Below, in pieces: positions 5,631 through 14,968 of a DNA stretch of 35,849 nucleotides. Numbering within the stretch: position 1 is the stretch's first letter; each line of letters begins with the position of its first letter. The position numbers and the translations under genes were made by a program. The stretch is from IMG/VR virus record IMGVR_UViG_3300023196_000696, positions 1 through 35,849 of that record, one strand, 5' to 3'. The stretch is from a virus. The notes beneath the pieces were generated by a model. That model did not search any database, was not told the origin of the DNA, and worked only from the letters and a program-made list of their open reading frames with translations.

Positions 5631-5855
5631 ATGTCTGGAGAAACCCCCGTGGTCCATATATTCAGAAAAACTACAAATACCCCCAAAAGATACTTTAGAA
5701 AAGAGTATAAATCACCCCTGTTGTATCAACGAGGAGAATATGTCATTACGAAAATCCCCCAGAAGCAGAAACCCGATAGCGATACAGCTGCTCTCATACA
5801 AAAGTTCCGTGAAGAAGAACAAAAAGAAAGAAATTCCAAGAAAAAGAAGAAATAA
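5631..5855 (+). CDS. 74-aa basic protein, first plus-strand gene
   Basis: Starts at the ATG directly after the T run, with AGGAG in the terminator stem at correct spacing. The 74-residue product is basic (TTNTPKRYFRKEY, SPLLYQRGEYVITKIPQ) with a charged helix ALIQKFREEEQKER and a final run of lysines. The sequence looks like a real small protein rather than noise and resembles small hypothetical proteins of marine phages. A competing frame, 5740-5877, has a good ribosome site (GAGGAG) but an odd low-complexity product. Function unknown. Confidence 0.55.
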   Translation: MSGETPVVHIFRKTTNTPKRYFRKEYKSPLLYQRGEYVITKIPQKQKPDSDTAALIQKFREEEQKERNSKKKKK

Positions 5856-5920: not shown

Positions 5921-5984
5921 GTCTCTAAAGCAAGTAGCCGCCCTCTGGTATATGAAACTATTTACCTGATTTTAGGTCATTGCT

Positions 5985-5996
5985 GTACACGTGTAC
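5985..5996. repeat. perfect 12-bp palindrome GTACACGTGTAC
   Basis: GTACAC (5985-5990) followed directly by its reverse complement GTGTAC (5991-5996). It is flanked by an ACCT/AGGT inverted pair (5964-5976). A dimeric regulator could bind it; no promoter is clearly positioned around it. Confidence 0.5.
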
Positions 5997-6182
5997 GGGC
6001 ATACCCCCACTGGGTCATGCGTACCCTCTAAAATCACACAATATTTATATAATAAAATCAATGTGTTACCTAAGATAAAGCCTTTTATAGCCTTGTACAG
6101 CGACAAAGTTTTATTTTCGGTTAGCCTTAGCCACTTTTTTTCTTTAGCTCTGTATAAAAAGATTATAGGACTATGCAGGCAT

Positions 6183-6208
6183 GATTAATTTTGTACTTAA
6201 AATTAATC
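6183..6208. repeat. perfect 10-bp inverted repeat
   Basis: GATTAATTTT (6183-6192) and AAAATTAATC (6199-6208) flank a GTACTT loop. It lies immediately before the first TGTCAA-N4-TTGACA palindrome. No T run follows, so it is not a normal terminator; a protein site or cruciform is more likely. Confidence 0.7.
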
Positions 6209-6213
6209 TATAA

Positions 6214-6275
6214 CGTCAATTATTTGACTATATCTATGTCAATTTATTGGCAATAGATTTGTCAGATTATTGACA
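6214..6275. promoter_or_regulatory. array of three operator-like palindromes, 23-bp period
   Basis: Three sites fit TGTCAA-N4-TTGACA: 6214-6229 (CGTCAA/TTGACT), 6237-6252 (TGTCAA/TTGGCA) and 6260-6275 (TGTCAG/TTGACA). Their starts are exactly 23 bp apart, close to two helical turns, so bound dimers would lie on about the same DNA face. The third contains the -35 box of a candidate promoter (TTGACA 6270-6275, 18 bases, TATAGT 6294-6299). A fourth site lies at 6384-6399. Confidence 0.65.
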
Positions 6276-6299
6276 ATGCCTGCGGATGATAGATATAGT
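6270..6299 (+). promoter_or_regulatory. candidate promoter overlapping operator 3
   Basis: TTGACA (6270-6275), 18-base spacer, TATAGT (6294-6299). The -35 is the right half of the third palindrome, so a bound protein would compete with RNA polymerase. The -10 is only moderate. Confidence 0.35.
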
Positions 6300-6406
6300 C
6301 TTTAGTCCTTTGATAGTAGTACAAGTATGATAGTAACAGAATAATATCTGATAGTAATGTAAGCGAAAATTTTTATGATAGTTTGTCAATGTTTTGACTG
6401 ATAGTA
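6287..6406 (+). repeat. six TGATAGTA-type direct repeats
   Basis: Copies at 6287 (TGATAGAT), 6311, 6328 and 6349 (all TGATAGTA), 6376 (TGATAGTT) and 6399 (TGATAGTA), with steps of 24, 17, 21, 27 and 23 bp. All point the same way. The last one begins on the final base of the fourth palindrome (6384-6399). Inverted copies occur after the next gene at 7600-7689. Confidence 0.7.
6384..6399. promoter_or_regulatory. fourth TGTCAA-N4-TTGACA palindrome
   Basis: TGTCAA (6384-6389), TGTT, TTGACT (6394-6399). It lies 124 bp after the third copy and is wedged between two TGATAGT repeats, so the two repeat families are physically interleaved. Confidence 0.6.
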
Positions 6407-6490: not shown

Positions 6491-6519
6491 TTGCATAACT
6501 TGTCATAATTTCGTATATT
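6491..6519 (+). promoter_or_regulatory. early promoter P1 (TTGCAT-17-TATATT)
   Basis: TTGCAT (6491-6496), 17 bases, TATATT (6514-6519). It shares with three other promoters (7765, 8841, 9511) the preceding gT, the following AA, the exact spacing and a T/A-rich discriminator; with the 9511 promoter it also shares AACT after the -35 and ATTTCG before the -10. It should drive the 317-aa gene at 6580. Confidence 0.7.
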
Positions 6520-6579
6520 TAATTATGAGTTTTGAATTGTTCGAAACTCTTTAACTTAATATCTTTGAAAGGATATATT

Positions 6580-7533
6580 ATGACAAACTTAATAAACGAA
6601 GATTTCAAAAAATCAGTAATTGAAACTGATATTAATAAAATTAATCATATCATTGTTGGCGTTTTAAAGCCCATGTATGAGGGGGAAAAATCCCAAGCTA
6701 AGTTAGGCGTTACTCTTGGGCTTGCCGTCGCTGATTGGGTTGTGTTGGCTATGTCAGGAGAAAATACTGCAAACCAATTACCAACTCTAGACCAATGCAA
6801 GAGCCATTTAAAAGATTTAATAAAATCTTTTGTTCCTAAGGTTGAAAATGCAAAAGGTGAATCTGTGCCTGATATGAACGAGGTTAATAAATTAAATTCT
6901 CATGTTCAAGATGCTTGCAAAATGGCTCTCCTTGTTGCTGGTGCTAATACTGGATTTATTAAAGGTATCAGGAATGAAGAAAGAGCAGAGATTGTGCCAT
7001 TAAATAAAGCCTTTGATAATAAGGGAAAATTAAAAACTGGATTAGTTGAAGATATTTTCTGGAGTCCAATTTCTACTTTTCCAAGACGAAATGATGGCAC
7101 AGAAAAAGCCCCTATAGATGTAGAAAATTCTGCTGTTCATAGACCAACAACAATTAAATCTGTTCGTGATTGTTTTGGGGTTCATTTCGAGGGTAAAAAA
7201 TTAAACTCTGGAAGATATGCTTTAGATGTTATCAAAGACACAAGAGATAAAACGGAGCAAGGTTTTGTTTTAACGACTCCTGAGGGTGGTTTAAAAGTTT
7301 CAGGTTTAAAAGATGCTATTCAATTTATTACCAATAGATTTGAAGATGGCGACGTTGAAATGATGCTAGTTAAAGATGATAATTCTAGCAAAAATTGTTT
7401 AAATGCTATTGAACAATTTATCAAAGTATTTCAGCAAAAAAAATCAAATGCTTTAGCAGAGATTAAATCTTTAGAAGAAAATGAAAAAGCAGAAATAGAA
7501 ATGAAAAAAGCAAGATTTAAAAAATCAGCTTAA
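6580..7533 (+). CDS. 317-aa early protein of unknown function
   Basis: I start at the ATG at 6580 (MTNLINEDFKKSV), because AAAGGA lies a few bases upstream; a longer frame to 6532 has no ribosome site. The product is soluble and mixed-charge, with an N-terminal helical region (to about 150), a middle part containing FWSPISTFPRRNDG and HRPTTIKSVRDCFGVHFEGK (about 155-200), and a Lys/Glu-rich coiled tail from about residue 285 (IKSLEENEKAEIEMKKARF). No known domain is recognised. It stands alone between P1 and a strong terminator, flanked by TGATAGTA repeats on both sides in opposite orientation. It could be the protein that binds them, for example in replication start or early control; that is inference. 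Confidence 0.85.
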   Translation: MTNLINEDFKKSVIETDINKINHIIVGVLKPMYEGEKSQAKLGVTLGLAVADWVVLAMSGENTANQLPTLDQCKSHLKDLIKSFVPKVENAKGESVPDMNEVNKLNSHVQDACKMALLVAGANTGFIKGIRNEERAEIVPLNKAFDNKGKLKTGLVEDIFWSPISTFPRRNDGTEKAPIDVENSAVHRPTTIKSVRDCFGVHFEGKKLNSGRYALDVIKDTRDKTEQGFVLTTPEGGLKVSGLKDAIQFITNRFEDGDVEMMLVKDDNSSKNCLNAIEQFIKVFQQKKSNALAEIKSLEENEKAEIEMKKARFKKSA

Positions 7534-7548
7534 AAAACTTTATTCCCC

Positions 7549-7586
7549 AAGCCCAAGATTATTAATTTAATCTTGGGCTTTTTTTT
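7549..7586 (+). terminator. strong rho-independent terminator
   Basis: A 13-bp perfect stem, AAGCCCAAGATTA (7549-7561) with TAATCTTGGGCTT (7568-7580), loop TTAATT, followed by a T run to 7586. It ends the transcript of the 317-aa gene 16 bases after its stop. Confidence 0.93.
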
Positions 7587-7599
7587 ATGTAATTTTAAT

Positions 7600-7689
7600 T
7601 ACTATCAAAATTTGTTTTTTGTTCCAAAAAACTATCATGGAATCCTTCGGATACCTTCTATCATATATGTTTAGTCGACACTACTATCA
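7600..7689 (-). repeat. four inverted TGATAGTA-type repeats
   Basis: On the plus strand these read TACTATCA (7600-7607), AACTATCA (7630-7637), TTCTATCA (7656-7663) and TACTATCA (7682-7689), that is TGATAGTA, TGATAGTT, TGATAGAA and TGATAGTA on the minus strand. They mirror the direct copies at 6287-6406 around the 317-aa gene. The remaining 7590-7830 gap holds only promoter P2. Confidence 0.65.
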
Positions 7690-7764: not shown

Positions 7765-7793
7765 TTGCTTAACTATGTTGTTATTGGTATTAT
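7765..7793 (+). promoter_or_regulatory. early promoter P2 (TTGCTT-17-TATTAT)
   Basis: TTGCTT (7765-7770), 17 bases, TATTAT (7788-7793) followed by TAAGGA. Same family as the promoters at 6491, 8841 and 9511. It precedes the run of five small genes starting at 7831. Confidence 0.7.
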
Positions 7794-9549: not shown

Positions 9550-9623
9550 GGGAGTTTCGTCTAATGGAAAGACTCCAAGTTCCAACCTTGAAGATGTGGG
9601 TTCGATTCCTACAACTCCTGCCA
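9550..9623 (+). tRNA. tRNA-Trp (anticodon CCA), 3' CCA encoded
   Basis: A 74-base cloverleaf. Acceptor GGGAGTT (9550-9556) pairs with AACTCCT (9613-9619) with one G-U. D stem GTCT/AGAC (9559-9562, 9570-9573) with loop AATGGAA. Anticodon loop TTCCAAC (9580-9586) gives anticodon CCA at 9582-9584; its stem CCAAG/CTTGA has one mismatch at the base. T arm GTGGG-TTCGATT-CCTAC (9596-9612). Discriminator G73, as in bacterial tRNA-Trp, then encoded CCA (9621-9623). It reads UGG and lies directly after promoter P4. Confidence 0.9.
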
Positions 9624-14156: not shown

Positions 14157-14200
14157 CGAGAAACTTGCCGAGGGGTAAACCCTTAGAGAGGAACATGAAG

Positions 14201-14968
14201 ATGAACATTAGAAATTTTATACAACAAAATGAACCTATGGACAATAGCTCTAACAGAATTAATTGTCCTGAGTGTGGTGGGAGAAATACGTTTACAATTA
14301 CCAAGGAGTACGGAAAACTTCTTTGGAATTGTTATAAAGCCTCATGCAGGATAAAAGGTGCTAAAGATGTAGCTCGAACTAAAGATGACATCAGAAGTTT
14401 GGTCAGTTCGCAAAACTATCATTCTATCTATCATCTTTCAGAGCATTTCGTTCCAGTTCACAACCATTCACAATCTATGGCTTATTTGACTAGGAATAAC
14501 TGTATCCATGCTTTAGAAGATAGGCTTGCCAAAATACTATATGACCCTAAACAAAATAGGACTGTCTTTATAGTCCAAGATGATTCACAAGTTTACGATG
14601 CTATCGGCAGAAGTTTCAGTAATAAAGTTTTGCCTAAATGGTATAGGTACGGCAACTCATCAAAGTTATTCACTTGTGGTGAACATGATACTGCTATACT
14701 CGTAGAAGATGCGGCTAGTGCTTGTGCAGTTTCACAAGTAGCAACTGGTGTGGCACTTTTAGGCACTAACTTAAAAGATGCCGACCTCACACCATTACGT
14801 AAGTACAAACACGTTCACATTTGCCTGGATGCAGATGCTACCCGCAAGTCGCTTGACATACACAAGTATTTGTCGTATTTTGTACCTTGTAGTGTAATTC
14901 GTCTTAAAGATGATTTAAAATATTTTAACAAAGAGGAGATTAAGAAATTAGTATGGAACAACAATTAA
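14201..14968 (+). CDS. TOPRIM DNA primase
   Basis: A 255-residue primase expected to make RNA primers for lagging-strand synthesis. I choose ATG 14201 (MNIRNFIQQNEPMDN), 8 bases after AGGA; the ATG at 14195 is too close and an upstream TTG is unlikely. An N-terminal zinc ribbon has CPEC at residues 22-25 and Cys44/Cys49. The TOPRIM core shows ILVEDAASAC (Glu169) and HVHICLDADA (Asp210, Asp212). There is no helicase domain: the helicase is encoded separately just downstream, with a 16-base overlap, so unlike T7 gp4 the two activities are split between adjacent coupled genes. Confidence 0.93.
   Translation: MNIRNFIQQNEPMDNSSNRINCPECGGRNTFTITKEYGKLLWNCYKASCRIKGAKDVARTKDDIRSLVSSQNYHSIYHLSEHFVPVHNHSQSMAYLTRNNCIHALEDRLAKILYDPKQNRTVFIVQDDSQVYDAIGRSFSNKVLPKWYRYGNSSKLFTCGEHDTAILVEDAASACAVSQVATGVALLGTNLKDADLTPLRKYKHVHICLDADATRKSLDIHKYLSYFVPCSVIRLKDDLKYFNKEEIKKLVWNNN

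Follow-up and report, generated by a model that had tools for sequence, protein, structure and literature searches.

What is a dense, ordered set of repeats doing directly before an early gene of a phage? The question is raised by the window analysed here, the whole 35,849 bases of IMG/VR virus record IMGVR_UViG_3300023196_000696. Its primase, DnaB-like helicase and family A polymerase genes follow each other in this order, and the block has 35-46% identity to that of Pelagibacter phage HTVC033P and 34-40% to that of HMO-2011, both with the same order (46% and 40% for the DNA polymerase). By this homology test, the window is assigned to an HMO-2011-type phage. Like HMO-2011, HTVC033P and the CRP phages, it has homologous primase, helicase and DNA polymerase genes in matching order and carries its early and late blocks on opposing strands: minus-strand genes, including a lysozyme, lie left of the repeats and plus-strand early genes lie to their right. 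Unlike the window, the HMO-2011-type isolates have neither the 317-aa protein family encoded by the early gene, nor the repeat arrays, nor the avoidance of the word CTATCA described below. A search for array carriers among cultured phages found neither a k-mer cluster nor a homologue, and a scan of the genome collection with the polymerase found no relative. The early region also includes a tRNA-Trp gene (anticodon CCA, 9550-9623).

The initial annotation had described a 10-bp perfect inverted repeat, four TGTCAA-N4-TTGACA palindromes and six TGATAG-type direct repeats, and had read them as two interleaved families of sites in exact helical phase. All of these elements are present (Table 1). 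Three of the palindromes lie exactly 23 bp apart, with 1-2 mismatches apiece, and the fourth is indeed wedged between two repeat copies. The phasing holds for the palindromes only; the TGATAG copies, which we call array A1, follow each other at 24, 17, 21, 27 and 23 bp. Four of these copies read TGATAGTA, the one at 6376 TGATAGTT and the one at 6287 TGATAGAT. Two further arrays had been missed: A2, an inverted partner of A1 beyond the 317-aa gene, and A3, a pair inside the primase gene. TGATAGT occurs nine times in 35.8 kb, against 7.1 expected window-wide, and all nine copies are in A1, A2 or A3.

Table 1 Features of the repeat region, the early gene and the additional arrays (window coordinates unless stated otherwise)
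Feature	Position	Strand	Remarks
10-bp perfect inverted repeat	6183-6208	.	GATTAATTTT-GTACTT-AAAATTAATC; left of the operator palindromes
Three TGTCAA-N4-TTGACA palindromes, type A	6214-6229, 6237-6252, 6260-6275	.	from scripts and alignment
Array A1, six TGATAG (6287, 6311, 6328, 6349, 6376, 6399)	6287-6404	+	
GCGAAAATTTTT between two A1 sites	6363-6374	+	unchanged in six aligned relatives
Fourth TGTCAA-N4-TTGACA palindrome	6384-6399	.	wedged between the TGATAG copies at 6376 and 6399
Promoter P1 of the 317-aa gene	6491-6519	+	TTGCAT-17-TATATT, conserved; weak by consensus scan
317-aa early gene between A1 and A2	6580-7533	+	
Terminator of the 317-aa gene	7549-7580	+	
Array A2, CTATCA at 7602, 7632, 7658, 7684	7602-7689	+	inverted partner of A1
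Promoter P2 of the next early operon	7765-7793	+	TTGCTT-17-TATTAT, conserved; from alignment
Array A3, CTATCA pair at 14416, 14428	14416-14433	+	inside the primase gene (14165-14968)
Inverted 317-aa homologue, L227 (G014)	6551-7649	minus	contig coordinates
Inverted 317-aa homologue, L410 (G022)	1053-2204	minus	contig coordinates

Are the repeats conserved? In uncultured relatives of the window they are: the repeats, their order and the 23-bp step are kept, and every relative with a homologue of the 317-aa gene has A1, and A2 as well where the contig extends that far. The conservation that the initial annotation proposed to look for among HMO-2011-type phages thus extends to these uncultured marine phages, hereafter the array clade, and not to the known isolates. 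The 10-bp inverted repeat is only partially conserved in the A1 alignment. Three relatives (L003, L006 and L007) retain the TGTCAA palindromes and the 23-bp step between them, whereas three others (L004, L005 and L099) have, at the same positions, type B palindromes of the form TGTTGCA-N4-TGCAACA or TGTTGTA-N4-TACAACA; upstream these are also 23 bp apart, and TGTTGTA-N4-TACAACA replaces the fourth palindrome between the TGATAG copies. Because the two types swap at identical positions, the palindromes and the TGATAG repeats are separable families, in agreement with the two site families originally proposed. The palindromes may be the sites of a putative regulator with changeable specificity, or else hairpins. 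A comparison of palindrome type with 17 neighbouring genes, in a window that is short of about 20 kb of genome, gave no signal that marks a regulator. We considered the 317-aa protein as the binder and rejected it, as none of its residues follows palindrome type. L006 is a mosaic at 5660-5800, where an A-type cassette sits in a backbone otherwise like the B-type L004 and L005, which shows a recent exchange of a segment of roughly 200 bp.

The surroundings of A1 hold other conserved elements. After the terminators, a non-coding element (5950-6015) contains a perfect palindrome, GTACACGTGTAC, at 5985-5996, a conserved GGGTCATGC and an ACCT/AGGT-type stem that covaries by eye; it is altered in L003. 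Beside the region, a small Lys-rich gene of 74 aa (5631-5855) is conserved and restricted to the array clade, and in L096 it has a near-consensus promoter, TTGACA-17-TATAAA.

Within A2 the copies are 30, 26 and 26 bp apart and the gaps are palindromic, mostly with TTC loops (GAA on the TGATAG strand). Perfect stems of at least 4 pairs were found in 19 of 22 A2 gaps, and in 12 of these the loop, read on the TGATAG strand, is GAA, although many of these phages are close kin and the gaps are therefore not independent events. The stem sequences vary from phage to phage. Short DNA hairpins with a GAA loop, of the GCGAAGC kind, are extraordinarily stable.

A3 lies in coding sequence. In the primases of the clade a CTATCA pair recurs at one position with a spacing of about 10-19 bp. 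In one frame the codons are AAC-TAT-CAT (Asn-Tyr-His), TTC-TAT-CAT or TAC-TAT-CAA (Tyr-Tyr-Gln); in other primases the word is read in another frame, as ACT-ATC-ACT or ACT-ATC-ATG. The word is thus retained despite amino acid changes and in two frames, which shows selection at the DNA level. Across array sites the base before CTATCA is A in 70 cases and T in 25, never C or G. In the relatives G001 (52 kb) and G013 (49 kb), closely spaced CTATCA pairs are confined to A1, A2 and A3. The CTATCA strand is the minus strand of the window in A1 and the plus strand in A2 and A3.

Outside the arrays the same word is rare. In 318 kb of clade DNA we counted 58 copies of CTATCA, against 132 expected from a maximal-order Markov model and 210 from a dinucleotide model, which ranks it second in avoidance among 1,923 hexamers; words that differ from it by one base occur about as often as expected. 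ACTATCA occurs three times outside the arrays in the same 318 kb. The avoidance is absent from the cultured relatives (98 observed, 105 expected) and from the 42-47% polymerase group (194 observed, 163 expected). A host restriction enzyme is a poor explanation, since HMO-2011 is also free of GATC and yet does not avoid CTATCA. GATC itself has no copies in about 480 kb of array-clade DNA and none in HMO-2011, and is frequent in HTVC033P and the CRP phages; GGCC is absent from the window. The lack of GATC suggests that the host has a defence directed at GATC, and could be a sign of a SAR116-like host.

A further line of evidence comes from where the contigs break. Among 101 contig ends of the array clade, six begin exactly at the ^ATCA of an array site, where the density of the motif predicts 0.016 (P about 2e-14 before correction for the choice of cut position). 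The motif had been set beforehand by the initial annotation and the cut position had not, which calls for an about ten-fold correction of P. Each of the six comes from a different metagenome. Two of them, L014 and the 55.6-kb G005 (L041), begin with the ATCA of the last CTATCA of A2, and four (L009, L016, L021 and L045) with that of the last, second, CTATCA of A3. No starting tetramer other than ATCA is common to more than three contig ends. On the opposite side, the sequences of L003 and L005 follow that of L004 exactly as far as the CT of the first A2 site, after which come CTT and CCTTCC. These short tails, of 3 and 6 bases, would fit Accel-NGS 1S libraries if that kit was used for the two samples. 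In such libraries a mostly C/T tail of about 8 bases is put on 3' ends (PMC9699676), and the kit was employed for JGI viromes (PMC6511391). The breakpoints thus comprise eight contig ends in all, six starts and two stops; the majority of clade contigs run straight through the arrays. A1 has a single near miss, G029, which starts one base off the predicted cut, and a search with the DUF6321 gene for contigs ending at A1 returned other phages that lack the genes next to it. G005 does not have its right end at the motif. The two ends of this contig (L041, L240) flank the module of A1, gene and A2, with TGTCAA-type palindromes left of the right end.

Taken together, the computed clustering of the word, its strand-oriented conservation across reading frames, its avoidance elsewhere and the exact breakpoints fit a cut site, (A/T)CT^ATCA. 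We consider it probable that a sequence-specific activity, most likely that of a nicking endonuclease encoded by the phage, cuts the DNA at TGATAG/CTATCA. The CTATCA strand would be cut as (A/T)CT^ATCA, and the phage would keep its sites clustered at three places and avoid the word elsewhere. Several nicks on the same strand would leave a gap which, once polished during library making, would give left-hand pieces that end at the first CT and right-hand pieces that begin at the last ATCA. As the putatively cut strand is minus in A1 and plus in A2 and A3, the 3' ends from cutting would be directed away from the gene on both sides. We further infer cutting of a single strand, an enzyme that belongs to the phage, and a role of the outward 3' ends in priming or processing replication. 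Cutting or nicking is the stronger reading of TGATAG, and neither an operator nor an iteron that is only bound predicts it.

What would such cutting be for? It may serve a replication origin, packaging or cassette exchange. One guess, which we prefer and hold with low confidence, is outward-primed replication. The A1-gene-A2 module and A3 would form a nick-primed origin, the early protein sandwiched between the arrays would direct the cuts, and strand-displacement synthesis would start from the 3' ends at clustered nicks on opposite strands and run outward both ways. We regard this fuller scheme as unlikely. A simple outward-priming model does not explain why A1 is on the opposite strand to A2 and A3, or why it is flipped, with CTATCA orientation, in L095 and L096.

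No nickase gene was recognized. The family of the 317-aa gene is fast-evolving and confined to array-bearing phages. The protein had no match in Pfam, PHROG or NCBIfam, and no nuclease motif or known fold was detected in the family. A first structural model was poor; a second AlphaFold model (pLDDT 77, usable for residues 1-210) gave no convincing fold match in the PDB and viral libraries. HTVC033P gp12 (340 aa), considered as a homologue, did not match in a profile search. The 317-aa family is one of several found only in the array clade, together with a 492-aa protein, a 651-aa protein and a zinc-finger protein; any of the four could be the cutting enzyme or its partner. Two phages, G014 and G022, carry the homologue (profile E 1e-13 and 3.5e-16) inverted between the arrays, with its terminator adjoining A1 and its 5' end adjoining A2; in G022, where the gene sequence has no gap, it shares only about 21% identity with its window counterpart. 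A 27-bp stretch of the window gene (7316-7342) is 89% like the second palindrome region, likely by chance. In Rfam we found just two sub-threshold sRNA matches, at the terminator, and an RNA motif in the leaders is weakened as a candidate by the flipped A1 of L095 and L096.

How do other explanations fare against these observations? An iteron-type replication origin, with TGATAG bound but left uncut on either flank of the gene by an initiator of the phage (possibly the 317-aa protein), would account for arrays that flank a clade-specific gene in both orientations, and a phage with its own primase, helicase and polymerase needs a loading site. On such a reading, neither the contig ends exactly at CT^ATCA nor the pair in the primase gene would be expected; the copies are 17 to 30 bp apart, and the initiator fold was not found in the 317-aa model. 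The region is AT-rich, and the extreme of GC skew that the initial annotation proposed to look for does fall here, as a cumulative minimum at about 5.5-6.5 kb; it coincides with the switch from minus- to plus-strand genes and thus gives no independent support for an origin. A replication origin at the repeats is possible, and nothing points to the DnaA or IHF that had been suggested with it; an origin of the binding-only kind is, in our judgement, decidedly unlikely. Site-specific recombination or cassette exchange, with the arrays as crossover sites of a recombinase or homing-type enzyme and mixed populations breaking the assemblies, draws on three observations: G014 and G022 carry the homologous gene reversed between these inverted arrays, its terminator by A1; the 55.6-kb G005 ends on both sides of the module; and L006 is a mosaic in A1. 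Against it, both orientations were found only between diverged phages, and the low identity of the G022 gene means that no inversion within a population is seen. A3 has no cassette yet accounts for four breaks, no recombinase was found in the window, and branching of an assembly graph should not make contigs begin at a single exact base that nothing precedes. We rate recombination as quite improbable.

If the breaks were an assembly or library artefact of hairpin-rich, AT-rich arrays that are hard to sequence, the palindromic A2 gaps would be the natural culprit, and most contigs are fragments anyway; but A3 has no hairpin and still gives four starts at an identical base in diverged lineages, no other tetramer recurs as often, and the avoidance is independent of assembly. 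We therefore hold an artefact to be very unlikely. Least likely of all is transcriptional control, in which TGATAG and the palindromes would be operators of the early promoters P1 and P2 and form a genetic switch, as the initial annotation had proposed. In most relatives both arrays do precede conserved TTGC-17-TATAAT-like promoters, and the palindromes are exchanged as a cassette in the manner of immunity regions. In G014 and G022, however, A1 abuts the terminator and not the promoter, which also weakens an activator role for TGATAG; together with the flipped A1 of L095 and L096, the inverted gene makes a solely promoter-bound role of A1 unlikely. A3 lies within coding sequence, none of the 17 neighbouring genes compared was seen to vary with palindrome type as a regulator would, no integrase or repressor was found, and both the genome-wide avoidance and the exact breakpoints would be left unexplained. 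The switch finds no support.

If (A/T)CT^ATCA is indeed a nick site, relatives of the abundant marine HMO-2011 phages have made nick sites into conserved arrays. These would surround one early gene and sit inside the primase gene, which makes their purpose testable. Existing metagenomes would also reveal such sites without a culture, through the ends of their contigs and the words that the phages avoid.

The arrays can be compared with several known systems. Plasmid iterons occur on both sides of rep, as in P1 oriR/incA and F ori2/incC. As in those plasmids, the window has several direct repeats, about two helical turns apart, flanking an early gene linked to the arrays and to the clade. It differs in its variable spacing (constant helical spacing is absent from A1 and A2), in the lack of a detected Rep fold, in the extra pair in the primase gene and in evidence for cutting, not binding alone. 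Site-specific interruptions of virion DNA are a second point of comparison, with nick sites R/GCGCRGG in T5 and CGACxxxxxCCTA/CTCCGG in phiKMV-like phages (reviewed in PMC3517423). They resemble the putative nick sites of the array clade as site-specific breaks without a known purpose, but their sequences are unrelated, they lie on one strand only and they form no gene-flanking arrays.

The nearest known case is Pseudomonas putida phage tf, which has localized single-strand nicks at 14 sites with the consensus TACT/RTGMC (PMC3517423); putative tf-like sites, TACTATGAC, are found in LUZ24 and PaP3 (PMC3517423). The tf consensus TACTRTGMC has no match in the window, whose motif is (A/T)CTATCA. 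In tf, and by our reading in the array clade, a short fixed sequence is cut after CT and before AT or GT; both have sites at conserved places and extra sites nearly absent. The tf nicks were measured, whereas those of the array clade are deduced; DNA ends at fixed positions are seen here indirectly, as six starts at ^ATCA and two ends at CT^. The nicks of tf are single, dispersed and all on one strand, whereas the clade has arrays of 2-6 sites on both strands around one gene; in the window and in both G001 and G013, A1 lies on the strand opposite that of A2 and A3. Phage nicks were already known in the 1960s and still have no agreed purpose, which the authors of the tf study call unknown (PMC3517423); a nick-primed origin, if that is what the arrays form, would supply one for these localized nicks.
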